Positions 1-59,721 of a DNA stretch of 64,000 bases are shown here, piece by piece. The stretch spans positions 1 through 64,000 of the forward strand of contig JAWQEG010004762.1 in assembly GCA_033782935.1 (NCBI GenBank), read 5' to 3'. Numbering within the stretch: position 1 is the first letter of the stretch; every line of letters begins with the position of its first letter. The DNA is from Petrolisthes cinctipes. Lineage: Eukaryota > Arthropoda > Malacostraca > Decapoda > Porcellanidae. Under the pieces are notes generated by a model. That model searched no databases. It was given only the letters and a program-made list of their open reading frames with translations, and was not told where the DNA came from. A program made the position numbers and the translations under genes.

Positions 1-1
1 G

Positions 2-481
2 TATAATTCCTTGGTCCGTCCCCTTATGGAGTATTGTGTTCAAGCCTGGTGCCCGTACTACCGGAAAGATATAGCAAAATTGGAACGAGTCCAACGTAGA
101 GTTACTAAAATGATACCAAGTCTGAGAAATAAAACGTACGATGAGCGGCTAAGTGAATTAAATCTATTCCCATTGATACAACGTAGACTAAGAGGTGACT
201 TAATCCAGGTATTTAAAATAATCAAAGGCATAGATAATATGGACTGCACCAAATATTTCACTATTGATCAATCAAACTACACGAGAGGAAACGGCTGCAA
301 AATCATAGGTAAATCTTTTAATTCGCACAAATCAAAGAATTTCTTTTCTAACCGGGTCGTCAACTTATGGAATGGGCTTCCCCGTAATGTAATAGACTGT
401 AACACCGTAGACAGCTTCAAACGTCGCTTAGATAAACACCTTGCGTCTAATCCCCGACTTACAATGTTTACTAATGAATAA
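2..481 (+). CDS. LINE ORF2 C-terminus, partial (post-RT domain)
   Basis: The reading frame enters from outside the window and ends at TAA 479-481. It encodes the C-terminal region that follows the RT domain in CR1/Jockey-type ORF2 proteins, recognisable by 'YCVQAWCPYY', 'LERVQRRVTKMIP', 'LRGDLIQVFKI' and 'NLWNGLP'. No frameshift or stop is seen. It differs from A and B at a few residues, so it is an independent copy and not an assembly repeat. The catalytic RT part lies outside the window. Confidence 0.88.
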   Translation, partial: YNSLVRPLMEYCVQAWCPYYRKDIAKLERVQRRVTKMIPSLRNKTYDERLSELNLFPLIQRRLRGDLIQVFKIIKGIDNMDCTKYFTIDQSNYTRGNGCKIIGKSFNSHKSKNFFSNRVVNLWNGLPRNVIDCNTVDSFKRRLDKHLASNPRLTMFTNE

Positions 482-729
482 TTTTTGCCCATTACAGGTG
501 GCAAGTTAGCCAAATTTCACCTACTTTCTATCTTTCCTATAAAATTTCCTTGTGGAGTATTTCTGCCAACCCACAAGGTTCCCATTCCTGACTTTATTTC
601 CTGTACGGCTCAGGCCGGAGGGATTGGAGGGTGGGGAGAGAGCCTTCTACTTTGCTATCCTTACCTACGACTATCACTGGGGAGTAATTCATTCTCTACC
701 AGTAACCTTCTAATCAGGTCACCTCGTGT

Positions 730-743
730 GGACCGTAAGGTCT
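730..743 (+). other. LINE 3' UTR hairpin with GTAA tetraloop (copy 0)
   Basis: GGACC-GTAA-GGTCT can form a 5-bp stem (outer pair G-U) capped by a GNRA-type tetraloop, about 35 nt before the terminal repeats. The same structure is found in A, B, C and D. By analogy with L2/UnaL2-type LINEs, where the RT recognises a 3' stem-loop, it may be the RT binding site (inference). Confidence 0.55.
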
Positions 744-775
744 GTTGTGCTCTGTGTTTCTATGTAGCTCTATGT

Positions 776-2667: not shown

Positions 2668-2870
2668 TTAATTAATAAATAAAAAAATAAATAAAAATAA
2701 TAAAAAAATAATAAATTGATTAATAAACTTATAAATAATTTAACAAATTAATAATTAATAAATTAATTAATAAATAAATTATCAAAATTCATAAATAAAT
2801 TAACAAAATTAACAAATAAATTAATAAATAAAAAAATAAATTAATTAATTAATTGGTAAATAAATTAATA
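2668..2870 (+). repeat. AT-only TTAATAAA-rich tract before ORF1 of element A
   Basis: Simple A/T sequence made of TTAATAAATAAA-like words, ending immediately before the CACCATGG start context of ORF1. Element B has the same tract expanded to about 850 bp (8716-9565). Confidence 0.9.
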
Positions 2871-2879
2871 AATATCACC

Positions 2880-3866
2880 ATGGCACCTCAACTAACCTGT
2901 TCGACCTGCTCTGGAACCTTCGGCCCAACAATTTTCGCGAACAGAGACGTCCTCATTTGTAGATTCTGCCAATTACGAGATGAGATGTCGACCGACCAGA
3001 AGGCAGCACAACGTAAGATAGACGCCTTGAGTGAGAAATTAGAAACGCTGCAGGAATTCACTACACTCAACGTGGGAGTGACACACACACCTATCGTACC
3101 CGTTGTCACAGCCCCTGTACAGACTGCCTCTACACCCTCACCGGCACCACCAACCACACCTTTACCTTCATCGGCACCATCAGCAATTTCTATTTCTCCA
3201 CGGGAGGAGTTCCGCGTAGTCAGGAGCAATTTACGACCCAGGAAAAACATCATACCCATCACCACATGCCAAAACCGCTTCAAGATCCTGGCACAAGATG
3301 ACGATGAAGATGACACCGAGGTCAGGCTGGTTGGTGACTCCATGGTGAGGGGTCAACTCACCGAGTTCTGTGGAAGGGCACCCAAGTCGAGGAAGCGTTT
3401 TTGCATCCCGGGTGGCGGCCTAGATGACGTAGTTGATACAGTGGACGATGTAACAAGCCTGGCCCCCGACAACACCACGTACGTCATCCACGTCGGAACC
3501 AACGACGTAATGAAAACCAGATCAGAGGACCTACTCAACAAGTACCGACAGATGATTAGGAAGTTCAAGGAAAAAACGAATAACATCATACTCTCTGGAA
3601 TCATCCCCCGCAGTCAAGCAGACACCCGTTTCTACAACAACGCTACCAGTATCAACCGACGACTTGCCAACATCTGTAACGAAGAGAACGTCGATTTCGT
3701 CAACACCTGGGACAACTTTTATTTTGATGACTCGTTGTTCTCAGATGATGGTGTCCATCTGAATCAGGTAGGAGCAGCCCGTTTTGGACGTTTGCTAAAC
3801 GACGCGGTCATCAACCATCATACAAAAAACGGGACTGCCCAGGTACGTCAAGGTCAGGTAACGTAA
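2880..3866 (+). CDS. LINE ORF1: CxxC zinc-knuckle plus SGNH-type esterase (element A)
   Basis: 328 aa, starting at ATG 2880 in an excellent CACCATGG context that is shared with B. The N-terminus has CSTC (about residues 7-10) and CRFC (about 28-31), a probable zinc knuckle. A short coiled-coil-like stretch follows ('AAQRKIDALSEKLETLQEF'), then a Pro/Thr/Ser linker. The C-terminal half is an SGNH/GDSL-like esterase with 'GDSM' (nucleophile Ser), 'HVGTND' (block III Asn) and 'DDGVHLN' (Asp/His). Esterase domains are known in CR1/L2 ORF1 proteins, where they may act on membranes or RNP assembly. The last codons carry the slippery site 3824-3830, so part of the product may continue as ORF2. Confidence 0.9.
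   Translation: MAPQLTCSTCSGTFGPTIFANRDVLICRFCQLRDEMSTDQKAAQRKIDALSEKLETLQEFTTLNVGVTHTPIVPVVTAPVQTASTPSPAPPTTPLPSSAPSAISISPREEFRVVRSNLRPRKNIIPITTCQNRFKILAQDDDEDDTEVRLVGDSMVRGQLTEFCGRAPKSRKRFCIPGGGLDDVVDTVDDVTSLAPDNTTYVIHVGTNDVMKTRSEDLLNKYRQMIRKFKEKTNNIILSGIIPRSQADTRFYNNATSINRRLANICNEENVDFVNTWDNFYFDDSLFSDDGVHLNQVGAARFGRLLNDAVINHHTKNGTAQVRQGQVT
3824..3830 (+). promoter_or_regulatory. Putative -1 ribosomal frameshift heptamer A_AAA_AAC (element A)
   Basis: In ORF1 phase the sequence reads acA AAA AAC, the canonical X_XXY_YYZ heptamer, 34 nt before the ORF1 stop codon. Slipping by -1 puts the ribosome in a frame that is open from 3830 through all of ORF2. ORF2 has no AUG until 4199, past the first endonuclease motifs. 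Only weak pairing potential is visible downstream (GGG/CCC directly after, TACGT/ACGTA further on), so the stimulatory element is unclear. Confidence 0.65.
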
Positions 3867-6700
3867 AACGAATAAACAGAATAAACCGAAATAGCTTAAA
3901 GGTATTTTACGTTAACGCTCGCAGCATCCATAACAAATTCACAGATCTAGAGGAAAAAACGCTCACAGAAAATTATGATATAATCGGCATTACAGAATCG
4001 TGGCTAAATACTGAAAATAGAGACTTCCTAGCAGAGTATAAAATTCCTGGCTACACAATATTTGAGAAAGGTCGAACAAATAAAAGGGGAGGCGGAGTTC
4101 TATTATATATTAAAGATGACCTCAAACCGATCCTATTATCAAAGCCCCATATCGCTAACGTAGACACACTATATATACTCATTAGAAATAAATTCGGGAT
4201 GAAACTTTTGTTAGCCTTATTATACAGACCCCCAGCTCAACCAGTACAAATCGACCGTGATATCTATGAACAAATTAACGAGATGAGTAACACGCAAGAG
4301 GCCGTAATTCTTGGCGATTTTAATTTACCAGTAACAAAGTGGGGAGAACCATTATCAGCTCACTATGGTCAAGACCTTTATACTAACTTACAAGAGAGCT
4401 CTCTTATCCAATTTGTTAATAGTCCAACTCGTGGAAATAACGTTCTTGACCTAATACTTGCCACAAAAGAAGACTTGATAGGGAATATTAACGTTGGTGA
4501 TGAATTTACTAATAGCGACCACCGCATAATCACATTCAGTATAAATTTCAATAGAAGCGAAATAAATTACAGCTACGAAAAAATCCCCGACTTTAGAAAA
4601 GCTAATTTTCACCAACTCAGAGCGATACTAAAAGATACCGATTGGAAATGTCTGCGAGACACTATTAACATTAATACACAATGGAACTTTTTCACTAATG
4701 CGTACGCAAAAGCGGTCAAAGATAGCATACCGTTAAAAAACCGACGTTCAGCACAAAACTTAAAGCCCAAGTGGTGGAGTAAAGAGATAGCCGACTGTTT
4801 ACGCGCCAAAATGAACGCCCATAATAGAGTAAAAATCACAGACGATAATAACGAGCGGGCCAAGTTTTCAGACTTACGAAGAAAAGCCAAAAAGTTAATC
4901 AAACAGAGTAAAAAGGCCATTGAAAAACACGTTGCAAATCAAAGTAAGACAAACCCGAAAGAGTTCTACAGTTATATTCGGCATAAGAAAGTACTCACGT
5001 CAACTATCGGACCACTACTTGATGAGAATGGGGACTTTACTACAGATGAAGAGCGAATGAGTGGTATCCTTAACACTTTCTTTGCATCAGTCTTTACTAC
5101 AGAAAACCCAAACAATATACCAGCAGTAACAACAGTCCAAAATGAAAACACCGAGGTATTAAGTAATATCAGCATAACAGAAAGTGACGTAATAAAATGT
5201 ATCGATAAATTAAATGTAAATAAGTCACCTGGGCCAGACACGATCTCCCCTCGCGTATTAAAGGAAGCAAAAAGCGAAATAGTAAAACCTCTGACTCTGC
5301 TCTTTAACTATTCTTTACACACTGGAACAATACCTGACGAATGGAAACTCGCTAACGTAACACCAATATTTAAAAAAGGCAGCAAATCTCTACCTAGCAA
5401 CTATCGCCCTATCAGCCTAACCTCAGTCGTATGCAAAATGCTAGAGACAATCATACGAGATAAACTTACAAATCACTTAGAGGAAAACAACTTACTTAGT
5501 GACACTCAACACGGTTTTCGTAATAAACGCTCTTGCCTAACGAACCTATTAGACTTTTTAAATGACATTTTCAATGAATATGATAAGAGTAAAGCAGTAG
5601 ACATAATTTATCTAGATTTCCAAAAGGCCTTTGACAAAGTTCCCCATAAACGCTTAATATCTAAACTAAAATCACACAGAATCCAAGGCGATACCGTAAG
5701 ATGGATAGAGAACTGGCTAAGAAACCGAAAACAACGCGTGGTAATAATTGGAAAATCTTCTAGTTGGACAGGCGTTACAAGTGGGGTGCCACAGGGGTCA
5801 GTTTTAGGGCCAATCCTATTCCTAGTTTACATAAACGACATAGACGAAGGCCTCTCATGCATAATATCGAAGTTTGCCGATGACACCAAAATTGCAAATA
5901 CAGTACTCACTAACGCACAGACTAAAGAAATGCAAGATAATCTCGATAAATTGTCAAATTGGGCGAAAACTTGGCAAATGTCCTTCAATTCAGATAAATG
6001 TAAAGTGCTCCACATCGGACATCATAACGTAGCAGCAAACTACTCGTTAAATGGTAAGCAACTTAAAAGCGTGGATCGAGAGACAGACTTAGGTGTAACA
6101 GTATCAAGTAACCTAAAACCCAGTCAGCAGTGTACGGAAGTAATTAAGAAAGCAAATAAAACTATCGGCTTTATCGGCAGAGCATTCGAGTATAAATCTA
6201 AAGACACAATCCTCACTTTGTATAATTCTTTGGTCCGTCCCCTTATGGAGTATTGTGTTCAAGCCTGGTGCCCGTATTACCAGAAAGATATAGCAAAATT
6301 GGAACGAGTCCAACGTAGAGTTACTAAAATGATACCAAGTCTGAGAAATAAAACGTACGATGAGCGGCTAAGCGAATTAAATCTATTCCCATTGACACAA
6401 CGTAGACTAAGAGGTGACTTAATCCAGGTATTTAAAATAATCAAAGGCATAGATAATATGGACTGCAACAAATATTTCACTATTGATCGATCAAACTACA
6501 CAAGAGGAAACGGCTGCAAAATCATAGGTAAATCTTTTAATTCGCACGAATCAAAGAATTTCTTTTTTAACCGAGTCGTCAACTTATGGAATGGGCTTCC
6601 CAGTAACGTAATTGACTGTAACACCGTAGACAGCTTCAAACGTCGCTTAGATAAACACCTTGCGTCTAATCCCCGACTTACAATGTTTACTAATGAATAA
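3830..6700 (+). CDS. LINE ORF2: APE endonuclease and reverse transcriptase (element A, intact)
   Basis: About 956 codons in the -1 frame of ORF1. There is no in-frame AUG before 4199, so I start the frame at the slippery site. The endonuclease shows 'VNARS', 'ITESWL' (catalytic Glu), 'RGGGVLLY', 'LGDFN' and 'NSDHR'. The RT shows 'KSPGPD', 'LANVTPIFKKG', 'NYRPISLTS', 'YLDFQKAFDKVPH', 'SGVPQGSVLGPILF' and the catalytic 'FADD' at 5873-5884. The C-terminal region follows with 'LERVQRRVTK'. No stop or frameshift is seen. The protein nicks the target and primes reverse transcription there; (CT)n repeats look like the target here. Confidence 0.9.
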   Translation, partial: RDCPGTSRSGNVKRINRINRNSLKVFYVNARSIHNKFTDLEEKTLTENYDIIGITESWLNTENRDFLAEYKIPGYTIFEKGRTNKRGGGVLLYIKDDLKPILLSKPHIANVDTLYILIRNKFGMKLLLALLYRPPAQPVQIDRDIYEQINEMSNTQEAVILGDFNLPVTKWGEPLSAHYGQDLYTNLQESSLIQFVNSPTRGNNVLDLILATKEDLIGNINVGDEFTNSDHRIITFSINFNRSEINYSYEKIPDFRKANFHQLRAILKDTDWKCLRDTININTQWNFFTNAYAKAVKDSIPLKNRRSAQNLKPKWWSKEIADCLRAKMNAHNRVKITDDNNERAKFSDLRRKAKKLIKQSKKAIEKHVANQSKTNPKEFYSYIRHKKVLTSTIGPLLDENGDFTTDEERMSGILNTFFASVFTTENPNNIPAVTTVQNENTEVLSNISITESDVIKCIDKLNVNKSPGPDTISPRVLKEAKSEIVKPLTLLFNYSLHTGTIPDEWKLANVTPIFKKGSKSLPSNYRPISLTSVVCKMLETIIRDKLTNHLEENNLLSDTQHGFRNKRSCLTNLLDFLNDIFNEYDKSKAVDIIYLDFQKAFDKVPHKRLISKLKSHRIQGDTVRWIENWLRNRKQRVVIIGKSSSWTGVTSGVPQGSVLGPILFLVYINDIDEGLSCIISKFADDTKIANTVLTNAQTKEMQDNLDKLSNWAKTWQMSFNSDKCKVLHIGHHNVAANYSLNGKQLKSVDRETDLGVTVSSNLKPSQQCTEVIKKANKTIGFIGRAFEYKSKDTILTLYNSLVRPLMEYCVQAWCPYYQKDIAKLERVQRRVTKMIPSLRNKTYDERLSELNLFPLTQRRLRGDLIQVFKIIKGIDNMDCNKYFTIDRSNYTRGNGCKIIGKSFNSHESKNFFFNRVVNLWNGLPSNVIDCNTVDSFKRRLDKHLASNPRLTMFTNE

Positions 6701-7000: not shown

Positions 7001-7056
<56 letters not shown>
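7001..7056 (+). repeat. (CT)n microsatellite, junction element A / element B
   Basis: An uninterrupted CT run between the 3' terminal repeat of A and the 5' end of B, which begins with a short T run and GCCCGCTTGC. Confidence 0.95.
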
Positions 7057-8715: not shown

Positions 8716-9565
8716 CTAAATTAATTAGTAAATAAATTATTTAATAAATAAATTAATAATTAACTAATAAACAAACTAACAATAGTTAACTAATAAATAA
8801 ATTAACAAATAAATTAATAAATAAGTTAATAAATAATTTAATAAATCAATAAAATAATACATTATTTAATAAATTAATAAATATATTAATAAATAAATTA
8901 CTTAATAAATAAATTAATAATTAACTAATAAACAAATTAACAATAATTAACTAATAAACAAATTAACAATAATTAACTAATAAACAAATTAACAATAATT
9001 AACTAATAAACAAATTAACAATAATTAACTAATAAACAAATTAACAATTAAATTAATACATAAATAAATAAATTAATTAATAAATAAATAAAATAATAAA
9101 CTATTAAATAAATTAATGAATTAATAAATAATTTAATAGATTAATAAATAATTCCATATATTAATAAATAATTTAATAAATTAATTAATAAACAGTTTTG
9201 ATAAATTAATTAATAAACCATTTTAATAAATTAATTAATAAACAATTTCAATAAATTAATTAATAAACCATTTTAATAAATTAATTAACAAACCATTTTA
9301 ATAAATTAATTAATAAACCATTTTAATAAATTATTTGATAAATCAATAAATAACTTAATAAATCAATAATAACTATTTAATATATTAATTAGTAAATATT
9401 TAATAAATTAATAAATTAATTAATAAATAATTTAATAAATAAATAAATTAACTAATAAACAATTTAATAAACTAATAGATAACTTAATAAATTAATAAAT
9501 AACATAATAAATAATTTAATAAATTAATAAATAATTTAACAAATTAACAATAAATTAATAAATAT
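8716..9565 (+). repeat. ~850-bp AT-only tract (TTAATAAA words) before ORF1 of element B
   Basis: Almost pure A/T made of AATTAATTAATAAAC and TAATAAATAATTTAA words. It includes a near-perfect run of AACAATAATTAACTAATAAAC units at 8940-9040 and ATTAATTAATAAACCATTTT units at 9180-9330. It is about four times longer than the matching tract in A. Confidence 0.92.
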
Positions 9566-9569
9566 CACC

Positions 9570-10529
9570 ATGGCACCTCAACTAACCTGTTCTACCTGCT
9601 CTGGTACTTTCGGCCCTACTATTTTCGCGAACAGAGACGTCCTTGTTTGTAGATTTTGCAACTTACGAGAGGATAATTTGACCGACTTGAAGGCAGCACA
9701 ACGCAAGATCGAGGCCTTGAGTGAGAAGTTGGAAACACTACAGGAATTCGTCACTCTCAACGTAGGAATGACATCGACGCCTACAGCACCCGTCGACACA
9801 GCCCCCGTACAGACTGCCTCTACACCCTTACCTCCACCGGCACCACCAACTACACCATCTCCACGGCAGGAGTTCCGCGTTGTCAGGAACAACATTCGAC
9901 CCACAAGGAACATTATACCCATCACTACGTGCCAGAACCGATTCAAGATCCTGGCCCAAGACGACGATGAAGACGACACCGAGGCCAGGCTGGTTGGTGA
10001 CTCCATGGTAAGGGGTCAACTCACCGAGTTTTGTGGCCGAGCACCCAAGTCGAGGAAGCGATTTTGCATCCCGGGTGGCGGCCTAGATGACGTGATTGAC
10101 TCAGTGGACGAAGTGACAAGCCTGGCCCCCGACAACACCACGTACGTCATCCACGTTGGAACCAACGATGTATTCAAGACCAGATCGGAAGAGCTCCTCA
10201 ACAAGTACCGACAGATGATTGCGAAGTTCAAGGAAAAGACGAACAACATCATCCTTTCTGGAATCATCCCCCGCAGACAAGCAGACACCCGTTTCTTCAA
10301 CACCGCTACTAGTATCAACCGACGACTTGCCAACATCTGCAACGAGGAGAACGTCGATTTCGTCAACACATGGGACAACTTTTATTTTGATGACTCGTTG
10401 TTCTCAGATGATGGTGTCCATCTGAATCAGGTAGGAGCAGCCCGTTTAGGACGTTTGCTAAACGACGCGGTCATCAACCATCGTACAAAAAACGGGACTG
10501 CCCAGGTACTTCAAGGTCAAGTAACATAA
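9570..10529 (+). CDS. LINE ORF1: CxxC zinc-knuckle plus SGNH-type esterase (element B)
   Basis: 319 aa, starting at ATG 9570 in the same CACCATGG context as A. Same plan: CSTC and CRFC knuckle, short coiled coil, a Pro-rich linker slightly shorter than in A, then the esterase with 'GDSM', 'HVGTND' and 'DDGVHLN'. The frame is intact. The end carries the slippery heptamer 10487-10493. Differences from A are scattered substitutions and indels in the linker, so the protein looks to be under constraint. Confidence 0.9.
   Translation: MAPQLTCSTCSGTFGPTIFANRDVLVCRFCNLREDNLTDLKAAQRKIEALSEKLETLQEFVTLNVGMTSTPTAPVDTAPVQTASTPLPPPAPPTTPSPRQEFRVVRNNIRPTRNIIPITTCQNRFKILAQDDDEDDTEARLVGDSMVRGQLTEFCGRAPKSRKRFCIPGGGLDDVIDSVDEVTSLAPDNTTYVIHVGTNDVFKTRSEELLNKYRQMIAKFKEKTNNIILSGIIPRRQADTRFFNTATSINRRLANICNEENVDFVNTWDNFYFDDSLFSDDGVHLNQVGAARLGRLLNDAVINHRTKNGTAQVLQGQVT
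10487..10493 (+). promoter_or_regulatory. Putative -1 frameshift heptamer A_AAA_AAC (element B)
   Basis: Same heptamer and phase as in A (acA AAA AAC GGG), 34 nt before the ORF1 stop. The -1 frame is open from 10493 into ORF2 even though the intergenic sequence differs from A by substitutions and an insertion. A possible 5-bp stem TACTT/AAGTA lies downstream but is not preserved in A. Confidence 0.65.
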
Positions 10530-13387
10530 TACGAACAAACAGAATAACACGGGCAAACGTGCAGTTACCCAACCGAAATAGTCTAAAGGTTTTTTATGTT
10601 AACGCTCGCAGCATCCATAACAAATTCACAGATCTAGAGGAAATAACGCTTACAGAAAATTATGATATAATCGGCATTACAGAATCGTGGCTAAATACTG
10701 AAAATATAGACTTCCTAGCAGAGTATAAAATTCCTGGCTATACAATATTTGAGAAAGGTCGAACTAATAAAAGGGGAGGCGGAGTACTATTATATATTAA
10801 AGATGACCTCAAACCGATCCTATTATCAAAGCCCCATATCGCTAACGTAGACACACTATATATACTCATTAGAAATAAATTCGGGATGAAACTTTTGTTA
10901 GCCTTACTATACAGACCCCCAGCTCAAGCAGTACAAACCGACCGTGATATCTATGAACAAATTAACGAGATGAGTAACACGCAAGAAGCCGTAATTCTTG
11001 GCGATTTTAATTTACCAGTAACAAAGTGGGGGGAACCATTATCAGCTCACTATGGTCAAGACCTTTATACTAACTTACAAGAGAGCTCTCTTATCCAATT
11101 TGTTAATAGTCCAACTCGTGGAAATAACGTTCTTGACCTAGTATTTGCAACAAAAGAAGACTTGATAGCGAATATTAACGTGGGTGATGAGTTTACTAAT
11201 AGTGACCACCGCATAATCACATTCAGTATAAATTTCAATAGAAGCGAAATAAATTACAGCTACGAAAAAATCCCCGACTTTAGAAAAGCTAATTTTCACC
11301 AACTCAGAGCGATACTAAAAGATACCGATTGGAAATGTCTGCGAGACACTATTAACATTAATACACAATGGAACTTTTTCACTAATGCATACGCAAAAGC
11401 GGTCAAAGATAGCATACCGTTAAAAAACCGACGTTCAGCACAAAACTTAAAGCCCAAGTGGTGGAGTAAAGAGATAGCCGACTGTTTACGCGCCAAAAAA
11501 AATGCCCATAATAGAGTAAAAATCACAAACGACAATAACGAGCTGGCCAAGTTTTCAGACTTACGAAGAAAAGCCAAAAAGTTAATCAAACAGAGTAAAA
11601 AGGCCATTGAAAAACACGTTGCAAATCAAAGTAAGACAAACCCGAAAGAGTTCTACAGTTATATTCGGCATAAGAAAGTACTCACGTCAACTATCGGACC
11701 ACCACTTGATGAGAATGGGGACTTTACTACAGATGAAGAGCGAATGAGTGGTATCCTTAACACTTTCTTTGCATCAGTCTTTACTACAGAAAACCCGAAC
11801 GATATACCAGCAGTAACAACAGTCCAAAACGAAAATACCGAGGTATTAAGTAATATCAGCATAACTGAAAGTGACGTAATAAAATGTATTGATAAATTAA
11901 ATGTAAATAAGTCACCTGGGCCAGACACGATCTCCCCTCGCGTATTAAAGGAAGCAAAAAGCTAAATAGTAAAACCTCTGACTCTGCTCTTTAACTATTC
12001 TTTACACACTGGAACAATACCTGACGAATGGAAACTCGCTAACGTAACACCAATATTTAAAAAAGGCAGCAAATCTCTACCTAGCAACTATCGCCCTATC
12101 AGCCTAACCTCAGTCGTATGCAAAATGCTAGAGACAATCATACGAGATAAACTTACAAATCACTTAGAGGAAAACAACTTACTTAGAGACACTCAACAAG
12201 GTTTTCGTAACAAACGCTCTTGCCTAACGAACCTATTAGACTTTTTAAATGACATTTTCAATGAATATGATAAGAGTAAAGCAGTAGACATAATTTATCT
12301 AGATTTCCAAAAGGCCTTTGACAAAGTTCCCCATAAACGCTTAATATCTAAACTAAAATCACACAGAATCCAAGGCGATACCGTAAGATGGATAGAGAAC
12401 TGGCTAAGAAACCGAAAACAACGCGTGGTAATAAATGGAAAATCTTCTAGTTGGACAGGCGTTGCAAGCGGGGTGCCACAGGGGTCAGTTTTAGGGCCAA
12501 TCCTATTCCTAGTTTACATAAACGACATAGACGAAGGCCTCTCATGCATAATATCGAAGTTTGCCGATGACACCAAAATTACAAATACAGTACTCACTAA
12601 CGCACAGACTAAAGAAATGCAAGATAATCTCGATAAATTGTCAAATTGGGCGAAAACTTGGCAAATGTCCTTCAATTCAGATAAATGTAAAGTGCTCCAC
12701 ATCGGACATCATAACGTAGCAGCAAACTACTCGTTAAATGGTAAGCAACTTAAAAGCGTGGATCGAGAGACAGACTTAGGGGTAACAGTATCAAGTAACC
12801 TAAAACCCAGTCAGCAGTGTACGGAAGTAATTAAGAAAGCAAATAAAACTATCGGCTTTATCGGCAGAGCATTCGAGTATAAATCTAAAGACACAATCCT
12901 CACTTTGTATAATTCCTTGGTCCGTCCCCTTATGGAGTATTGTGTTCAAGCCTGGTGCCCGTATTACCAGAAAGATATAGCAAAATTGGAACGAGTCCAA
13001 CGTAGAGTTACTAAAATGATACCAAGTCTGAGAAATAAAACGTACGATGAGCGGCTAAGCGAATTAAATCTATTCCCATTGACACAACGTAGACTGAGAG
13101 GTGACTTAATCCAGGTATTTAAAATAATCAAAGGCATTGATAATATGGACTGCAACAAATATTTCACTATTGATCAATCAAACTACACGAGAGGAAACGG
13201 CTGCAAAATCATAGGCAAATCTTTTAACTCGCACGAATCAAAGAATTTCTTTTTTAACCGAGTCGTCAACTTATGGAATGGGCTTCCCCGTAACGTAATT
13301 GACTGTAACACCGTAGACAGCTTCAAACGTCGCTTAGATAAACACCTTGCGTCTAATCCCCGACTTACAATGTTTACTAATGAATAA
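10493..13387 (+). pseudogene. LINE ORF2 with a premature TAA (element B)
   Basis: Same domains as ORF2 of A: endonuclease motifs 'NARS', 'ITESWL', 'GDFN', 'SDHR', and RT with 'FADD' at 12560-12571. The TAA at 11963-11965 replaces the Glu codon GAA that A has after 'KEAKS', cutting the protein between endonuclease and RT. After it the frame is open to the normal stop at 13385-13387. This single lesion makes B defective for RT, probably recently, because the rest is undamaged. No AUG exists near the 5' end of the frame. Confidence 0.9.
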
Positions 13388-13675: not shown

Positions 13676-13848
<173 letters not shown>

Positions 13849-14282: not shown

Positions 14283-15576
14283 ATGACTGGTCCATCAGCA
14301 AGAAAATTTACATGTACTACATGCAAGGTGTACCGCTGGTTTGAGGACTTCAGCGGGGAGGAGTGCGAGCGACCTAGACTCCTCGAGTGTCTGCGACTTT
14401 TGCAAACTCGAGGAGAGGTTGATGAAGCACATCTCACTGCTCACGAAGGAGAACAACTCCCTAAAGGAGGAAGTTCTCCGAATGGACTCGCAGAGGTGTG
14501 ACTGCCATGTGAGAGACAAGGCAGTCCAAGGAGCTTCTTCACCGGAGAGCTCCACCACGGCGGTAAAGAAGAAGAAGAAGAAGAACATGAAAAAGAACAA
14601 CAAGAAGAAGAACAACAAGAAGAAGAACAGCAACAATGAAGAGGGAGAAGAGACTGCAGAAGGAAAAGAGACTGCAGAAAAGTGTGATGGAAAAGAGGAG
14701 GGGAATATGGAGAAGGAAGAAAAACCCAAGAAGACAATTGAGGAGGGATTAGAGGAAAGTGAGGAATCAAACAAGAAGGAAAAGAAAATGAAGAAGGAAA
14801 AGAAGACGAAGAAGAAGCAACCTGGAGGAAGTGACGAGCCCGGCAGGAATTCAAAACACTCTCGGGTTCCTCACAAGGCATCTCGTGCTCCTACCAAGGA
14901 GAGGCCTGTGGATATACACATTGTAGGTGATTCCCAGGCACGAGGGCTGGAACCCCTAATGGCAGATCGCCTTCACACTTCTGTGAAGGTGAATTGTTTG
15001 CCAGGTTGTGGCAATGCTGACCTCCGAAAGGAAGTTGAGAGGATCCAAACGTCCAGATCTGCTGTCATTGCACTCATGGTGAGTGGTAATGACATCTACC
15101 TGAGAAATGGTAGAGTAGGCATGACCGAAGGAGTCCTCTCGGATGTGCTCGGTGCAGTAGACGACTGTGGGTCAAAAACCCGCAGAAGGGTAGTTGTTGG
15201 CATTCTCCCAAGGAGAGGCCCTTTAGGGACTGCTCTGTCAAAGAACATTGCAGTAAATCAGCGCCTGGCTGATTTGTGTACTGCCGAGGGGGTGTTCTTT
15301 GTGGACCCCTACACCTCACTCTTTGGTAGAGACGACCTCTACCAGAGGGATGGAACACATCTCTCACTAAAGGGGAAAGAAGTGCTTTCCAAATTAATGG
15401 AAGACGCCGTCCGACGATGTCTCAGGAGCACTCGACCGAGCGTGGAGGAGAGCCCTCGTCGCTATGCTAGAGTGACCCCAGAGAAGACATTCGCTGAGAT
15501 CCTGAAGAAGGATATCCCCAGCACTACCAAGACAATTACCAAGACAATTACCAAACCGGGAAACGGAAGAGTATAG
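14283..15576 (+). pseudogene. LINE ORF1, family 2: zinc-knuckle, Lys/Glu-rich linker, esterase (frameshifted)
   Basis: Starts at ATG 14283 ('MTGPSARKFTCTTCK'), giving the first CxxC. The second CxxC ('CDFCKLEERL') is in another frame that is open to 15576. A +1/-2-type shift between about 14341 and 14390 therefore separates the two halves of the knuckle; I cannot place it to the base. Then come a coiled-coil-like part, a long Lys/Glu-rich linker (about 14560-14830) and the esterase with 'VGDSQARG', 'VSGND' and 'RDGTHLS'. The linker replaces the Pro-rich linker of family 1. Confidence 0.82.
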
Positions 15577-15602
15577 GGAGCCCTGCAGTTGTGGGTTCCC
15601 TG
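15558..15602 (+). promoter_or_regulatory. Putative -1 frameshift signal: G_GGA_AAC plus stem-loop (element C)
   Basis: In ORF1 phase the sequence reads ccG GGA AAC, a canonical heptamer at 15558-15564. A 9-nt spacer (15565-15573) follows, then a stem of 10 consecutive pairs: 15574-15583 (TAGGGAGCCC) with 15593-15602 (GGGTTCCCTG), two of them G-U, closing a 9-nt loop. The ORF1 stop TAG (15574-15576) is inside the stem. The -1 frame is open from 15564 into ORF2, which lacks a nearby AUG. All three textbook parts of a -1 PRF site are present with standard spacing. Confidence 0.75.
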
Positions 15603-18338
15603 AAGGTTCTATTGTTCAACGCCAGGTCCATCCGAAACAAGTTTTTGGAACTGCGGGCCCTCGTTGCGACAGAGGAACCCGAGATGGTGGCCATAACGGA
15701 GTCATGGTTGAGAACCTCAGACAGAGATCTTGAAGGGGAATTCGTGATTCCAGGCTACCAACTCTTCCACAAAGATAGAGAGGACAGAGGGGGTGGTGGT
15801 GTGCTGTTGTATGTAAGGAACTCCATCAAATCGATGACCTGCAACATCACATCGAACCACGAGCTCCTTGGAGTTGACCTAGAAATAGGCACTGCAAAAT
15901 ACAGAACCCTGCTGCTTTATAGACCCCCTGGACAACTCAATGAGATGGACAGGGACCTATACCAGTTGCTGGGTGAACTAGTGGACGGCAGGGTGTGCAT
16001 CCTTATGGGGGACTTCAACACACATGTTGACTGGGAAACCAGAGAGCCCTCTGCCGAGAACACACCACTCTTGGAGTTTGTAAATGATGAATTCCTCACT
16101 CAATGGGTAAGGGAGCCAACAAGAGGTGCTAACATACTCGACTTGGTCCTCACCTCCGAGGATGACATCATTCAAGACCTCTCTGTAAATGAAGAAATAG
16201 GTGGAAGCGACCACAAGCTTATAAGATTTTCAGTTAAGGTCCCTAATATGGAGTCCGTGACCCCGGTGCATAGAAAATTAGACATGGGGAGAGCGGACTT
16301 TGCAGGTCTTCGTGAAGGCGTTGCTGAAATGAAACTAGAGGAGGGAGAGAGTGCTGATGATCTGTGGAGGTCATTCTTGTCTTCCTTCATGGAACTTCAG
16401 TCGCGCTTTATTCCTCTGAAGGGAACAGGTCAGAAGTTCATTCAACCTAAGTGGTTTAATCGGGAAATCCGTAACCTACTAAGGGAGAGGAGAACTGCGT
16501 ATCGTCGAGCGAAGGCATCTGGGGACTTTGACGGTCATAGAAGACTGAATCGAAACGTGAAGTCCAAAATAAGGGCGGCTAAGCGTGCTGAGGAGGTCCG
16601 TGTGGCTAGACTCTGCAAAGAGAACCCCAAGGAGTTTTTCAGTTATGTGAATGGCCGTAAACCAATCCGACGCAGGATCGGTCCCTTGGTGAATGAGGAT
16701 GGAGCATTGATGCACTCTGATGCAGAAAATGCTAACCTCTTAAATGAGTACTTCTCTTCAGTGTTCTCTGAGGAGAGTGGTCCCATTCCCGAACCTTTGG
16801 ACTCCTTCAGTGAGAAGTTGGAGTCAATGGTCTTCACCCAAGAAGAAATCGAGAGAAAAATAATCGAATTAAAAGCAAACAAGTCCCCCGGTCCGGATGG
16901 GTTCTTACCTAGAGTGTTGAAAGAAGTGCATGGTGAAGTATGACGGCACCTGTGCATGGTCTTCAACAGGATAATCCAGACTGGATGCGTTCCTAGAGAC
17001 TGGCGTGAGGCAGAGGTGACTCCTATCTTCAAGAAGGGAGATGCTAGCCAACCGTCAAACTACAGACCCATCAGTTTAACCTCGATAGTCTGTAAACTCA
17101 TGGAGAGCATCATGGTGGACAAAATAACAGCACACTTAGAATCAAATTTGCTACTGAGGGGTTCCCAGCATGGGTTCCGGCAGCACCGGTCATGCCTCAC
17201 AAATCTGGTGGAATTCTTCCATTTTGTTTTCAGTGAGCATGATCGGGATAAAGCGGTCGATGTTGTCTACTTAGACTTTCAGAAAGCCTTTGATAAGGTA
17301 CCCCACCGCCGCCTCCTTCGGAAAGTGCGTGCACTGGGCATAGACGGAAATGTGGCAAATTGGATAGAGAACTGGCTAAGTGACAGACGGCAGCGGGTGG
17401 TAGTGAATGGACAGGCTTCAGAGTGGGTGCCCGTTACTAGCGGTGTTCCCCAAGGTTCTGTTCTGGGACCACTACTGTTTATCATCTATGTTAATGACGT
17501 GGATGGTGACATGGTTGCCAAGATTTCCAAATTCGCCGATGATACTAAGCTTGGTATGAATGTCGCGAAAGAAGGAAATACTACCCGCTTACAAGAAGAT
17601 CTTAGGAAGATCGGGGAGTGGTCTGACACATGGCAAATGCCATTTAACGTGAACAAATGCAAAGTTATGCATATAGGCCACAGAAACCCCCGAACAGAGT
17701 ATAACCTTAAGGGCAATGCTCTCGTAAGCACTGATACTGAGAAAGACTTGGGTGTAACTATCACCAGTGACCTCAAGTTCTCAAAGCAGTGTATTGAGGC
17801 TGAGAAGAAAGCCCAAAGGATGTTAGGGTACATAAAGCGACAGTTTGGATACCGGAACAAGGAGATAGTACTTTGTCTGTACAATTCCCTTGTCCGACCG
17901 CACCTGGAGTATGCAGTCCAGTTTTGGAGTCCTTCTTACCGGAAGGATATCGCGAGATTGGAACGAGTGCAAGCCAGGGCAACCAAACTTATACCCTCTC
18001 TTAGACACAAGAGCTATAAAGATCGGTTGGTAGAACTCGACCTGTTCTCTTTGGAAACCCGGAGACTGCGTGGTCAGCTTATCGAAGTGTTTAAAATACT
18101 ACGAGGCTTTGACAATGTAGACTACAGGGACATTTTCCAACTCAGTGAGGGCACAACCAGGAATCATGGCTACAAACTTGAACTAAAGCGATACAACCGT
18201 GATCTGTGTGGTAAGTTCTTTACATACAGCATCTGCGGTACTTGGAACGCGCTTCCTGCTGATGTGGTCAACAGCAACTCTGTGGATCAGTTCAAGTCCA
18301 GATTAGACAAAGCCTTAAACCACCGTCTAGGTGTTTAA
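15564..18338 (+). pseudogene. LINE ORF2, family 2: endonuclease-RT with an in-frame TGA (element C)
   Basis: About 924 codons in the -1 frame of ORF1. Endonuclease motifs: 'FNARS', 'ITESWL', 'RGGGGVLLY', 'MGDFN', 'GSDHK'. RT motifs: 'KSPGPDG', 'VTPIFKKG', 'NYRPISLTS', 'YLDFQKAFDKVPH', 'SGVPQGSVLGPLLF', catalytic 'FADD' at 17532-17543. The TGA at 16941-16943 interrupts 'EVHGEV*RHLCMVFNR'; the same TGA is in copy D. Everything else is open to the TAA at 18336-18338. The TGA probably replaces an Arg CGA (inference from the CpG context). Confidence 0.88.

Positions 18339-18481: not shown

Positions 18482-18535
<54 letters not shown>
18482..18535 (+). repeat. (CT)n microsatellite, junction element C / element D
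   Basis: Uninterrupted CT run. The right edge joins directly to an internal ORF2 sequence of family 2 (TTTGCAGGTCTTC), that is, a 5'-truncated copy. Confidence 0.95.
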
Positions 18536-18537
<2 letters not shown>

Positions 18538-18539
<2 letters not shown>

Positions 18540-20575
18540 AGGTCTTCGTGAAGGCATTGCTGAAATGGAACTAGAGGAGGGAGAGAGTGCTGATGATCTG
18601 TGGAGGTCATTCTTGTCTTCCTTCATGGAACTTCAGTCGCGCTTTATTCCTCTGAAGGGAACAGGTCAGAAGTTCATTCAACCTAAGTGGTTTAATCGGG
18701 AAATCCGTAACCTACTAAGGGAGAGGAGAACTGCGTATCGTCGAGCGAAGGCATCTGGGGACTTTGACGGTCATAGAAGACTGAATCGAAACGTGAAGTC
18801 CAAAATAAGGGCGGCTAAGCGTGCTGAGGAGGTCCGTGTGGCTAGACTCTGCAAAGAGAACCCCAAGGAGTTTTTCAGTTATGTGAATGGCCGTAAACCA
18901 ATCCGACGCAGGATCGGTCCCTTGGTGAATGAGGATGGAGCATTGATGCACTCTGATGCAGAAAATGCTAACCTCTTAAATGAGTACTTCTCTTCAGTGT
19001 TCTCTGAGGAGAGTGGTCCCATTCCCGAACCTTTGGACTCCTTCAGTGAGAAGTTGGAGTCAATGGTCTTCACCCAAGAAGAAATCGAGAGAAAAATAAT
19101 CGAATTAAAAGCAAACAAGTCCCCCGGTCCGGATGGGTTCTTACCTAGAGTGTTGAAAGAAGTGCATGGTGAAGTATGACGGCACCTGTGCATGGTCTTC
19201 AACAGGATAATCCAGACTGGATGCGTTCCTAGAGACTGGCGTGAGGCAGAGGTGACTCCTATCTTCAAGAAGGGAGATGCTAGCCAACCGTCAAACTACA
19301 GACCCATCAGTTTAACCTCGATAGTCTGTAAACTCATGGAGAGCATCATGGTGGACAAAATAACAGCACACTTAGAATCAAATTTGCTACTGAGGGGTTC
19401 CCAGCATGGGTTCCGGCAGCACCGGTCATGCCTCACAAATCTGGTGGAATTCTTCCATTTTGTTTTCAGTGAGCATGATCGGGATAAAGCGGTCGATGTT
19501 GTCTACTTAGACTTTCAGAAAGCCTTTGATAAGGTACCCCACCGCCGCCTCCTTCGGAAAGTGCGTGCACTGGGCATAGACGGAAATGTGGCAAATTGGA
19601 TAGAGAACTGGCTAAGTGACAGACGGCAGCGGGTGGTAGTGAATGGACAGGCTTCAGAGTGGGTGCCCGTTACTAGAGGTGTTCCCCAAGGTTCTGTTCT
19701 GGGACCACTACTGTTTATCATCTATGTTAATGACGTGGATGGTGACATGGTTGCCAAGATTTCCAAATTCGCCGAATGATACTAAGCTTGGTATGAATGT
19801 CGCGAAAGAAGGAAATACTACCCGCTTACAAGAAGATCTTAGGAAGATCGGGGAGTGGTCTGACACATGGCAAATGCCATTTAACGTGAACAAATGCAAA
19901 GTTATGCATATAGGCCACAGAAACCCCCGAACAGAGTATAACCTTAAGGGCAATGCTCTCGTAAGCACTGATACTGAGAAAGACTTGGGTGTAACTATCA
20001 CCAGTGACCTCAAGTTCTCAAAGCAGTGTATTGAGGCTGAGAAGAAAGCCCAAAGGATGTTAGGGTACATAAAGCGACAGTTTGGATACCGGAACAAGGA
20101 GATAGTACTTTGTCTGTACAATTCCCTTGTCCGACCGCACCTGGAGTATGCAGTCCAGTTTTGGAGTCCTTCTTACCGGAAGGATATCGCGAGATTGGAA
20201 CGAGTGCAAGCCAGGGCAACCAAACTTATACCCTCTCTTAGACACAAGAGCTATAAAGATCGGTTGGTAGAACTCGACCTGTTCTCTTTGGAAACCCGGA
20301 GACTGCGTGGTCAGCTTATCGAAGTGTTTAAAATACTACGAGGCTTTGACAATGTAGACTACAGGGACATTTTCCAACTCAGTGAGGGCACAACCAGGAA
20401 TCATGGCTACAAACTTGAACTAAAGCGATACAACCGTGATCTGTGTGGTAAGTTCTTTACATACAGCATCTGCGGTACTTGGAACGCGCTTCCTGCTGAT
20501 GTGGTCAACAGCAACTCTGTGGATCAGTTCAAGTCCAGATTAGACAAAGCCTTAAACCACCATCTAGGTGTTTAA
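18538..20575 (+). pseudogene. LINE ORF2 fragment, family 2 (element D)
   Basis: Lacks the endonuclease and starts in the endonuclease-RT linker ('GLREGIAEMELEEGE'). Carries the same TGA as C (19177-19179). One inserted A changes the catalytic FADD codons: at 19771-19779 the sequence reads GCC GAA TGA, so the frame is lost exactly at the RT active site and continues in another frame to 20575. One Ser-to-Arg change precedes 'GVPQGS'. It is dead on arrival or decayed since. Confidence 0.9.
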
Positions 20576-20669
20576 GCCGTTGTGCGAGTGTTCCTTGATG
20601 GTTTCACATGACACATTCGAGGACGGTCGCCTACTTGCGCAACTAAACCCACAGGTACCCTCTTTGTAT

Positions 20670-20683
20670 GGATCGTAAGGTCC
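20670..20683 (+). other. LINE 3' UTR hairpin with GTAA tetraloop (element D)
   Basis: GGATC-GTAA-GGTCC, same as in C. Confidence 0.5.
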
Positions 20684-20716
20684 CCTAGGGTACTTCTTTT
20701 CCTTGTAACTCCTTGT

Positions 20717-20870
<154 letters not shown>

Positions 20871-56352: not shown

Positions 56353-59300
56353 TTTTTTTTTTTTTTTTTTTTTTACATATAGTGAGTGGAGGAAAGGAAG
56401 AAACAAATAAATAAATGGTTCCATTTGCCTATTGGCATCCTCCACTCATAAAATATTTAAAGCAACTGGATTTAAATTGCTGGGGGTTATAACTTGCTGG
56501 AAAACATTCCCTTGGAAGAGAATTCCACAGGGAAGTAGTACGGGGAGTAAATGAATTTTTGTAAGCAGTTGTCCTGCAACGTGGAGGAGTCAGTGTAAAC
56601 TCATGCGCATTCTCAGCTGCCCTAGTCCTCCGTGGGAAGACGTGAAGGGGTGGTATAATCAGGGCAAGTTCATCCGAACATTTCTTATAAAAGTATCTAT
56701 AAAATAGTGCAAGGGAAGCAACATTTCTACGTACTGATAAGGGAGGGAATTCATTAGTGATCATAGGATTATTGATCAGTCTGATAGCTCTGCTTTGAAT
56801 TTTATCTAATTGTCTTAACACCACCGATCCACAACCAGCCCACAGAGGTGAACAATATTCCATCTGGGAATGCACATGACTCTTATATATTACTGCTAAC
56901 TGCTCGTCAGTCAAATAATTACAAGCTCTGTATAAAAGTCCCATCTTCCTAGATGCAGTTTTGGCAATGGATTTTACATAGGGAGTCCAACTGAGGTTTT
57001 CATTTAAAGTTACACCAAGGAGATCAATGCTGTGGGACTTGGGAATATTTGTATTATTGAAAATAATGTGAGAATCTTGATTATCTGATCTATTTGAGAA
57101 CAGGATGTATTTAGTTTTATTTGCATTGAAAGAAACTAGGTTGTTTTGTCCCCAATCAAAGATCTTCGTTAAGTCTTCATTTAATGAAATTGAAGTGGCA
57201 AGTTTGTATTCTAAAATATTGTGTTGAGTAAAACTATCATTAAATGAGAAGGAACTGTGAATAGTTGAATCATCAGCATAGGAGTGAATTGAATTCTGAG
57301 TAACTGACAAAAGATCATTAATATGAATGAGGAACAAAGTTGGAGCCAAGACCGCTCCTTGAGGAACACCAGCATTAATGGGATGAAAGTCGGAATACAG
57401 ACCATCTACCATCACACGTAATTTTCTGTTGCTAAGATATGAATTAATTAGAGGAACAAAAGATTGAAGGCCATAATGTGGAAGCTTAGACAGTAATGAT
57501 CTGTGCCATACTCTGTCAAAGGCTTTAGATATATCAAGGCAAATTGTGTGAGTCTCTCCATGTTTATCAGTTGATTGGAATATGTTATCTGTGAAATAAC
57601 AGAGCAGATCCACAGTAGATCGTCTCTGTCTAAAGCCATATTGCTTATCATTTAGCAGATGATTTTTCTCAAGGTGTTTTACAAAGTGATTGTTAAGAAC
57701 TATTTCAAATATTTTACCGAGAGTAGACGTGATGGCAATTGGTCTGTAATTTGATGGATTTGCGGTAGCTCCTTTTTTGGGAATTGGTTGTACATTGGCT
57801 TCTTTCCAGGCGGCTGGGAAGGACGAGGTATGGAGACATACACGAAATAATTTTGAGAGAATTGGAGCTAATTCTTTTGAGCAATTTTTTAATACAGTGG
57901 GAGGAATTTCATCTGGCCCTGAAGCTTTGTCGATAGATAGATTCTCCAAAATGATCCGCACTTGTCTTGTATGAATTATTAAGGGTGGACTTTCTGGGGA
58001 GTTAAAATTCAAAATGGGAGTGTTTTGAGCAGTGTCATTGAGGTTTGAATTTGTGGCGAAGATATTGGCCAAAATATTTGCTTTACCACATGGATCACAT
58101 ATGAGATTTCCATTGCTATTCTTTAAAGGGGGAATAGATGAACCATGGTTGAAGTTAGATTTGAATGAGTTTACTGTTGACCAAAAGATCTTATTATCAT
58201 TAGGATTATTCAGTAATTTATTGACTTGTTTATGTATGAAGTTAGATTTGGCTAAATTAGTTACAGCTTTAGCATGGCATCTGACAATTTTGAAATAATT
58301 GTATGACTGAAGAGTTTTCGACTTTGTATAGGCATTATAGGCTATTGATTTTTGTTTTGTAGCTCTGGCACAGCTGTGATCAAACCATTTTGGAGAGTTA
58401 GATCTTTTTGAGTATTGTTGGTGAGGGATATATGTTTCCATTCCTATTTTTATAAAGTCAGTAATATGGTTCAGGAAGCTATCTGGGTCAGTAGAGTAAA
58501 ATGATGACCAAGGAATGTTAATTAAAAAGTCTCGGAACCCCACCCAATCTGCAGCATCATAGTGCCATTTGGTCACTCGGATGGGTTCAGAGTGGATGGG
58601 TAGGGAGGAGTGGGAACAGGAGACTGCAATGAGGCAATGGTCTGAGGATCCAAGAGGGGACTTCACTTCTACACTATATGTTTCGGGATTGGTAGTAAGA
58701 AACAGATCAAGTAGGTGCGGTCTATGTTCTGGATTATCAGGTATGCGAGTAGGGTGCTTGATTAGTTGGGTGAGATTGAATGAGTCTGCGAATAACTCGC
58801 ATTCAAGCCCAGGTTCATCAGTTCTGGCCGAATGAGTGAGCCACTCAACATTGTGGACATTAAAATCACCCAGTAAGGATATATCAGATGCAGCATTAAT
58901 GTTTAAATCAGAAAGAATGGAGGTCAGGGAATCAAAGAGGCTATTATCTGGGGAGGCATTTGGTGATCGGTAAATACAACAATAATATTTAACTGAGCCT
59001 GAAAAATTTAGCTTGTAAATTGAGTAATCAAAATCTGGTGATGTGAGATTGAAAATGTTCTCCAAGGATAATGTTGATCTAGCAAAACAGCAAACGCCTC
59101 CCTTTGATCTAAAATTAGACATTAAAATATAGCCTGGAAAGTTGTAGTTAGTCAGGTCAGAAGAGGGAGTGACCTGGCATTCAGTGAGGAAAAGAATATT
59201 AGGGGTTTCGGTTTGAAGAAGTAGGTGTATCGAGTTAATGTTGGAGTGAAGCCCCCGAATATTTGCAAACATAATTAATTCATTGTGCTGACGAGCAGTT

Positions 59301-59721
59301 GTTTTATGCATCATGGCTGGTGCTGACACAGTCGCGTGATGACGACCGGGAGGGCCCTGTGTCAAAGACCCAGCCCTGCCGGTGGTGGTCATCCGAGAAA
59401 CCACCGCGCTTGCTCTAAGAGTTGCGTCAGCCATGGTATGAAGTTTTAAAATGTGTTTGCGCTTGTATTGTTTTTCATGTTGAGTTGTGAGAAGTTGGTA
59501 TGTTAATGTCAAGGATAGGAGTGTAAGTGAATGTAGTTTGTATGGATGTGTGTGTAGTGTAAGGGATTACCTGGCTCCCCATAGATGTGTGAGGCAGAAG
59601 ATGTGTAACCAGCAACTGAGGCCTGGGGGAAAAAATGGAATCAGGTACTTCCTTGAATCTCCCATTGCCTCAGCGGTAGTACCTCCCTGGGTGGGGCTAC
59701 CTAACCCCTACTACATACCTC
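56353..59721 (-). mobile_element. Non-LTR retrotransposon (one-ORF LINE), about 3.37 kb, poly(A)-tailed
   Basis: On the minus strand: a 5' part 59721-59513, one long ORF (59512-56429), a short 3' UTR and a poly(A) tail (T run 56353-56374 on the plus strand). Inserted in a minisatellite array inside an MCM3 intron, same orientation as the gene. No separate ORF1 is visible, so it either lacks one or is 5'-truncated just upstream of ORF2. Apart from that it looks young. Confidence 0.9.
56429..59512 (-). CDS. LINE ORF2: APE endonuclease and reverse transcriptase, intact
   Basis: 1027 codons without stop or frameshift. The real start may be Met1 or Met27. Endonuclease begins at about residue 80 ('MFANIRGLHSN'), with 'LTECQV' (Glu), 'LLGDFN' at 215-218 and 'SSDHC' at 289-293. 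RT has 'KASGPDEIPP', 'ANVQPIPKKG', 'NYRPIAITS', 'CLDISKAFDRVWH', 'AGVPQGAVLAPTLF' and the catalytic 'YADD' at 745-748 (57280-57269). The C-terminus has 'MEYCSPLWAGC' and 'SLWNSLPRECFP'. Jockey/I-superfamily type; I cannot fix the clade by eye. No CCHC knuckle seen. Confidence 0.9.
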   Translation of the reverse strand: MTLTYQLLTTQHEKQYKRKHILKLHTMADATLRASAVVSRMTTTGRAGSLTQGPPGRHHATVSAPAMMHKTTARQHNELIMFANIRGLHSNINSIHLLLQTETPNILFLTECQVTPSSDLTNYNFPGYILMSNFRSKGGVCCFARSTLSLENIFNLTSPDFDYSIYKLNFSGSVKYYCCIYRSPNASPDNSLFDSLTSILSDLNINAASDISLLGDFNVHNVEWLTHSARTDEPGLECELFADSFNLTQLIKHPTRIPDNPEHRPHLLDLFLTTNPETYSVEVKSPLGSSDHCLIAVSCSHSSLPIHSEPIRVTKWHYDAADWVGFRDFLINIPWSSFYSTDPDSFLNHITDFIKIGMETYIPHQQYSKRSNSPKWFDHSCARATKQKSIAYNAYTKSKTLQSYNYFKIVRCHAKAVTNLAKSNFIHKQVNKLLNNPNDNKIFWSTVNSFKSNFNHGSSIPPLKNSNGNLICDPCGKANILANIFATNSNLNDTAQNTPILNFNSPESPPLIIHTRQVRIILENLSIDKASGPDEIPPTVLKNCSKELAPILSKLFRVCLHTSSFPAAWKEANVQPIPKKGATANPSNYRPIAITSTLGKIFEIVLNNHFVKHLEKNHLLNDKQYGFRQRRSTVDLLCYFTDNIFQSTDKHGETHTICLDISKAFDRVWHRSLLSKLPHYGLQSFVPLINSYLSNRKLRVMVDGLYSDFHPINAGVPQGAVLAPTLFLIHINDLLSVTQNSIHSYADDSTIHSSFSFNDSFTQHNILEYKLATSISLNEDLTKIFDWGQNNLVSFNANKTKYILFSNRSDNQDSHIIFNNTNIPKSHSIDLLGVTLNENLSWTPYVKSIAKTASRKMGLLYRACNYLTDEQLAVIYKSHVHSQMEYCSPLWAGCGSVVLRQLDKIQSRAIRLINNPMITNEFPPLSVRRNVASLALFYRYFYKKCSDELALIIPPLHVFPRRTRAAENAHEFTLTPPRCRTTAYKNSFTPRTTSLWNSLPRECFPASYNPQQFKSSCFKYFMSGGCQ

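Follow-up and report, generated by a model that had tools for sequence, protein, structure and literature searches.

The site at position 15558 of the window (the whole 64-kb stretch of Petrolisthes cinctipes DNA that we analysed) is very probably a -1 programmed ribosomal frameshift signal; we give this a probability of roughly 0.84. The element that carries it appears to be an esterase-type, CR1/L2-like LINE (we judge its class from its domains and from the names given to its matches), and its endonuclease and reverse transcriptase (EN-RT) would be made as a fusion of ORF1 and ORF2. A sequence-only reading of this DNA had already proposed an ORF1-ORF2 fusion by frameshifting, and both the conservation of the heptamer and the absence of an ORF2 AUG support that proposal.

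In the proposed mechanism, most ribosomes would end ORF1 of this LINE (family 2) at 15574-15576, and a fraction would be held at G_GGA_AAC by the stem-loop. There, both tRNAs would slip back by one base (from GGA AAC to GGG AAA), and translation would go on in ORF2. The product would be a fusion of ORF1, endonuclease and RT, made at a low, set ratio. The same mode would operate in a second family in the window (family 1, with A_AAA_AAC) and in a distant relative, L001 (with U_UUU_UUA). That ribosomes slip here, how often they do so, what the stem contributes and that the fusion serves as the working EN-RT are all inferred.

LINEs of two families lie within the first 21 kb of the window (Table 1), and their ORF2s match the Pfam domains Exo_endo_phos, Exo_endo_phos_2 and RVT_1, that is, an APE-type endonuclease and a reverse transcriptase. 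The 3' ends of all five copies, in both families, have a GTAACT-like sequence and then (CT)n, and several copies stand head to tail with (CT)n at the joins. Elsewhere in the genome, family-2 ORF1s occur at regular spacing on single contigs (C8530 and C5439). The shared (CT)n ends and the regular spacing suggest that these LINEs may insert into (CT)n microsatellites. Another LINE type is present as a 1045-codon open frame on the minus strand at 56429-59566; it is EN-RT-like by eye, and it lies far from the other elements in the tree of ORF2 proteins.

Table 1. Positions of the LINE features of the window, by family
Feature	Position	Strand	Remark
Family 1, 3' part only	1-769		
Family 1 copy 1, element	about 2.6-7.0 kb		
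Family 1 copy 1, ORF1, esterase	2853-3866	+	Lipase_GDSL_2, E 1.1e-12
Family 1 copy 1, slippery heptamer A_AAA_AAC	3824-3830	+	in ORF1 phase
Family 1 copy 1, ORF2, EN-RT	3749-6700	+	-1 frame, open
Family 1 copy 2, element	about 9.3-13.7 kb		
Family 1 copy 2, ORF1	9540-10529	+	
Family 1 copy 2, slippery heptamer A_AAA_AAC	10487-10493	+	in ORF1 phase
Family 1 copy 2, ORF2	10412-13387	+	-1 frame, one internal stop (11963-11965)
Family 2, junction-bearing copy, element	about 13.8-18.5 kb		
Family 2, ORF1	14287-15576	+	stop to stop
Family 2, slippery heptamer G_GGA_AAC	15558-15564	+	in ORF1 phase
Family 2, spacer	15565-15573	+	9 nt
Family 2, stem-loop	15574-15602	+	9-nt loop; opens with the ORF1 stop TAG
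Family 2, ORF2, endonuclease and reverse transcriptase	15498-18338	+	-1 frame, broken by TGA (16941-16943)
Family 2, second copy	18534-20717	+	5'-truncated, without the junction
(CT)n-associated LINE ends	778-825, 7001-7056, 13678-13846, 18482-18535, 20719-20829		

The family-2 junction and its genomic copies

ORF1 of family 2 has a cysteine-containing N-terminus, a lysine-rich linker and an SGNH/GDSL esterase domain. Its Pfam match to Lipase_GDSL_2 (E = 2.7e-6) scores 28.5 bits, under the Pfam cut-off of 32.9, and its profile matches PDB 4c1b_A with E = 2.4e-15. We take 4c1b to be the esterase of ZfL2-1; the title of that entry names the ORF1-encoded protein only.

The end of this ORF1 reads CCG GGA AAC GGA AGA GTA TAG, with a heptamer of the form X_XXY_YYZ. 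The sequence-only reading had described an in-phase heptamer, a 9-nt spacer, a stem of 10 pairs and an ORF1 stop inside the stem, and all of these are present where it had placed them. The 10 pairs are consecutive (15574-15583 with 15593-15602), two of them are G-U, and the stem opens with the three bases of the TAG. Its account of ORF2, as open in the -1 frame with no nearby AUG, is also correct: the frame is open from 15498, and the first Met codon (by hand count) is at 15684. This is beyond the motif NARSIRN, which presumably holds the catalytic asparagine of the endonuclease. We found no ORF2-frame AUG ahead of the endonuclease core (the NARS motif) in either window family. Nor does the ORF2 frame of family 2 or family 1 have an AUG that overlaps or adjoins the ORF1 stop, of the kind that SART1 uses.

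The 40 nt on the 3' side of the heptamer are predicted to fold into a hairpin of -17.6 kcal/mol (z = -3.3), which was equalled by 8 of 1000 dinucleotide shuffles. Longer stretches dilute this signal (26 of 1000 shuffles at 60 nt; z = -0.7 at 80 nt). Across the 427 in-phase positions of the family-2 ORF1, 13 (including the site itself) have a 40-nt downstream fold that is equally stable, and three have an in-phase canonical heptamer, one inside the 24-position overlap with ORF2 and two outside it. Because there are three such heptamers in 427 positions, the heptamer and its phase are unremarkable in one sequence. So, judged on its single sequence, the family-2 signal is suggestive, no more, and we see the case against chance as resting on conservation in relatives, not on the one sequence.

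A search of the junction against Rfam gave no match above threshold. The best match was to a gag/pro frameshift site that starts at 15558, but with 16.7 bits against a threshold of 43 (E = 0.82). We also considered whether the family-2 loop might form a pseudoknot with 15649-15654 through 6 Watson-Crick pairs. We rejected it, as it is no better than chance: an equal result came from 72 of 1000 shuffles and from 10 of 128 other stretches. Directly upstream of the heptamer, at 15525-15554, a 12-nt unit is present in 2.5 repeats; 38 of 40 scored genomic places have one unit fewer (389 nt matched to the 401-nt query).

Searches of the organism's own assembly (1,484,209,624 bases in 9385 contigs) yielded 58 family-2 loci, the window included. 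The heptamer is GGGAAAC in 54 of them and GGGAAAT, GAGAAAC or AGGAAAC in one each, and in the remaining locus the stretch is deleted. Thus, a canonical heptamer is kept in 55 of the 58. Using the junction as the query, which favours intact sites, accounts for 28 of these loci (28 of 40 scored places); among the 30 found with a protein query (L033-L062, the best 30 of 103 places), 27 keep the heptamer. In 52 of the 58 loci, the heptamer is in phase and the ORF1 stop is at the same distance. Three further loci have the heptamer behind an ORF1 that is broken upstream, which makes the phase unreadable.

All 58 copies have identical paired bases in the stem. This is no sign of selection because the copies are too young: 205 of 1271 29-nt windows are equally invariant, so we rejected family 2's own copies as a source of evidence for selection on the stem. 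The in-frame TGA at 16941-16943 in ORF2 is present in only 2 of 33 readable copies (the window and L006), and the other 31 have a sense codon. We therefore rejected readthrough or recoding of UGA at 16941 and view this stop as a local nonsense change. The second family-2 copy in the window has an in-frame TGA in ORF2 at 19177-19179.

The same layout in family 1 and L001

The signal is broader than the sequence-only reading had seen, as it is also found in family 1 within the window and in L001. In family 1, A_AAA_AAC is the sole in-phase canonical heptamer of each ORF1 (335 and 327 positions). The profile of family-1 ORF1 homologues matches PDB 4c1b_A with E = 4.9e-30. From 119 ORF1 matches in the genome, we picked 20 further copies by hand to span identities and lengths. 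All 20 have an in-phase heptamer (18 AAAAAAC and, in L063 and L070, AAAAAAT), so that, with the two window copies, the heptamer is kept in 22 of 22. In all 20, the ORF1 stop lies 11 codons past the N codon. In 19 of them, the -1 frame stays open through the rest of the retrieved sequence, and in L082 it stops after 15 codons.

There is no stable local hairpin after the family-1 heptamer. The downstream fold ranks 107th of 335 positions in one copy and 150th of 327 in the other, and its z is positive or near zero at most lengths. If family 1 shifts, it may use no simple hairpin, or it may use a structure beyond the hairpins that we modelled. Family 1 has two subfamilies, which differ by an in-frame insertion between the heptamer and the EN core, about 40-70 nt past the heptamer.

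Outside this genome, a search of genome_contigs with the ORF1 alignment gave no match, and a search with the ORF2 alignment gave L001, L002 and L003. L001 is a LINE on a contig that is filed under an archaeal MAG, a label that we attribute to contamination. Its ORF1 has an esterase-like end (CGR-F-L-V-stop), U_UUU_UUA is in phase at 480-486, and its ORF2 is in the -1 frame. After an 8-nt spacer there is a predicted hairpin of -16.1 kcal/mol; over 40 nt, 10 of 1000 shuffles were as stable, and the site ranks 2nd of 161. L002 and L003 have a different type of ORF1, and their ORF2 is in the same frame behind a single stop codon. We rejected them as carriers of the -1 signal because ORF2 and ORF1 share a frame; their layout may point to another lineage that relies on readthrough or reinitiation. 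Scans of viral_contigs gave no usable LINE relative (one contig, L004, matched at its edge), and in a tblastn search of plasmids and phages, the matches among the rows shown were below 60% identity and covered less than 35% of the query.

In a tree of ORF2 proteins that was built without named reference elements, family 1, family 2 and L001 are in different groups with 100/100 support. We are unsure of the position of L001 because it is a long branch joined to other long branches. When copy 1 of family 1, family 2 and L001 are pooled, their ORF1s have 5 in-phase heptamers at 923 positions. Three of the 5 are within the roughly 70 positions where ORF1 and ORF2 overlap (37, 24 and, for L001, about 9 by hand), with a probability near 0.004 (calculated by hand).

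Slippery codons in homologous proteins

Most of the homologues are protein records only. Our search with the family-1 ORF1 gave 142 proteins, and our counts are from the 120 listed. KN is present at the aligned dipeptide in 107 of these 120. The position before KN is taken by S, A, T, R, Q, P or L, all of which have an NNA codon (107 of 107), and KN is followed by G, A, E, D or V in 94 of 107. In 100 of 107, the stop is 9-11 codons past the N of KN, and the columns that flank KN are far more variable than KN itself. The 13 listed homologues that lack KN, one of which is cut off, are P0005, P0009, P0015, P0017, P0018 (whose tail is not homologous), P0022 (with KS), P0052, P0053 and a group of five with an FF pair, preceded by H, R or Y, three residues upstream (P0061, P0066, P0067, P0075 and P0086). 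Because H, R and Y have an NNT codon, U_UUU_UUY is possible in the FF group, and these elements, which are seen as protein only, could use it.

For family 2, the ORF1 search gave 11 proteins, of which P0130 is cut short and 10 reach the C-terminus. All 10 complete proteins have GN behind a hypervariable stretch, as [SQ]GN followed by three residues in nine of them and by four in P0131. So the homologues of both families keep the residues of the slippery codons.

The search with ORF2 gave 524 proteins, and again our counts are from the 120 listed. Seven listed family-1-like homologues have over 30 residues ahead of the catalytic asparagine. Six of them have KKR and P0168 has KKI; KKR fits the -1 reading of A AAA AAC G, which demands it. 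The longest contig is given as 3081 nt for P0063 as well as for P0158, and in each case a joint reading of both frames permits AAAAAAC alone as the heptamer. The called start is past the catalytic asparagine in 49 of 82 listed family-1-like homologues and 1-5 residues before it in 16 more; among the 38 more distant listed homologues, it is past the asparagine in 8. (These are the gene-caller starts in the records, and callers may accept GTG or TTG too.)

Some relatives have the two ORFs in a single frame. P0227 (1426 amino acids, from a JGI metagenome) combines a region with a GDS motif, an OTU domain (PF02338) and EN-RT. L054 and P0020, which may be dead copies, also have joined ORF1-ORF2 frames, and because of these three cases a fusion protein is plausible. 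The junction of L054 (G000:C2749:112052-113248, minus strand) has a deletion that removes the heptamer, and ORF1 and ORF2 form one open frame of 1100 codons. The named protein matches to ORF1 and ORF2 are from Petrolisthes, Portunus, Scylla, the crab-infecting microsporidian Enterospora canceri and a small number of bacterial MAG entries.

It seems likely that deeply separated lineages of LINEs with an esterase ORF1, many of them from decapods, make EN-RT only as a Gag-Pol-like -1 fusion. The heptamers would have been exchanged (A_AAA_AAC, G_GGA_AAC, U_UUU_UUA and perhaps U_UUU_UUY), with phase and place kept.

Other explanations and known systems

How the second ORF of LINEs is translated is a long-standing question, and in the cases studied the answer was reinitiation (PMC2881922, PMC5972666). 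By that route, translation of the family-2 ORF1 would end at 15574 and ORF2 would restart nearby, helped by downstream structure; SART1 has such an overlapping stop-start site with structure downstream (PMC5972666). The called start of the homologue P0231 aligns, by hand, with the family-2 ORF1 stop, and in L001 a separate ORF2 start is possible because a -1-frame AUG lies after the ORF1 stop and upstream of the EN core. However, termination-reinitiation as described for SART1 and L1 needs an ORF2 start codon and yields two proteins, which seems inconsistent with the lack of an AUG before the EN core in the window families. It also leaves unexplained why three lineages have an in-phase XXXYYYZ upstream of the stop, and we consider it improbable. 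We also considered that KN and GN might be a C-terminal protein motif of ORF1, with ORF2 translated from a different RNA, or by initiation that is internal or at a non-AUG codon. The conservation in homologues, being seen at the protein level only, would be expected of such a motif, but KN, GN and the FL of L001 are chemically unlike, and each is spelt by an in-phase canonical heptamer where the DNA is known. Furthermore, a protein motif would not account for the NNA codon that is always available to the variable residue before KN, or for the KKR of the -1 reading in 6 of 7 listed proteins. This explanation is very unlikely, and we favour frameshifting because the three dipeptides share no chemistry, only XXXYYYZ in phase.

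Transcriptional slippage at A or T runs could produce RNAs with joined frames, and family 1 and L001 do have A6 and T6 runs. But GGGAAAC of family 2 has no run of more than three, and both phase and spacer would be irrelevant to slippage of this kind, which we find scarcely credible here. To a chance heptamer in a decaying element we give next to no weight: the ORF2 of the window copy of family 2 does have a stop, and its ORF1 has two other in-phase canonical heptamers outside the overlap, but three lineages each have one heptamer in a short overlap, and within variable tails KN (107 of 120 listed) and GN (10 of 10) are conspicuous. We reject chance because homologues conserve the codons.

Many retroviruses make Gag-Pol by frameshifting, and GGGAAAC, AAAAAAC and UUUUUUA are all used by retroviruses. 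The sites described here resemble those for Gag-Pol in retroviruses and LTR retrotransposons in having X_XXY_YYZ in phase at the end of ORF1, a short spacer, a polymerase ORF in the -1 frame and, in family 2 and L001, a stem. The signal itself is a classical -1 frameshift site; the novelty lies in the element that carries it (a LINE whose ORF1 encodes an esterase) and in the product that we predict. Here the signal sits in a non-LTR element, an esterase-type ORF1 protein stands upstream in place of Gag, and the downstream part is an APE endonuclease with a reverse transcriptase. Pfam found no protease domain in the LINE ORFs, so the predicted fusion may stay uncut.

With an SGNH esterase in ORF1 and EN-RT in ORF2, these elements are similar to ZfL2-1 and the other LINEs of CR1/L2 lineages with an esterase-type (type IV) ORF1. 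In the available parts of the two papers on such LINEs, this ORF1 type is reported from many animal phyla (PMC3905857) and only from vertebrate subgroups of the set considered in PMC4120745; the word frameshift occurs 0 times in either paper. For SART1, and as proposed for L1, expression of ORF2 needs translation of ORF1 and downstream structure (PMC5972666, PMC2881922). A shift of frame has also been invoked for other non-LTR elements. From consensus sequences, a +1 shift or reinitiation, or stop readthrough, was suggested for LINEs of Paramecium (PMC5405496), and a frameshift is proposed for the gag gene of HeT-A of Drosophila, which has no RT (PMC5009743). In the accessible text of the open PMC literature, outside of which lie Repbase notes, preprints and most subscription papers, we found no description of -1 frameshifting for ORF2 of CR1/L2/Jockey-type LINEs, and it is not described in the available portions of PMC4700185, PMC7175516, PMC1925062 or PMC5408684.

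A conserved Gag-Pol-style frameshift, if true, would be a different answer to how LINE ORF2 is translated, one in which the ratio of ORF1 protein to RT is fixed. Our proposal predicts an esterase-EN-RT fusion protein, and with families that have intact signals in hand, a simple reporter test is feasible. If our proposal is correct, then the esterase-EN-RT polyprotein would be the acting enzyme of these LINEs, and the ratio of esterase to RT would be set by the ribosome.
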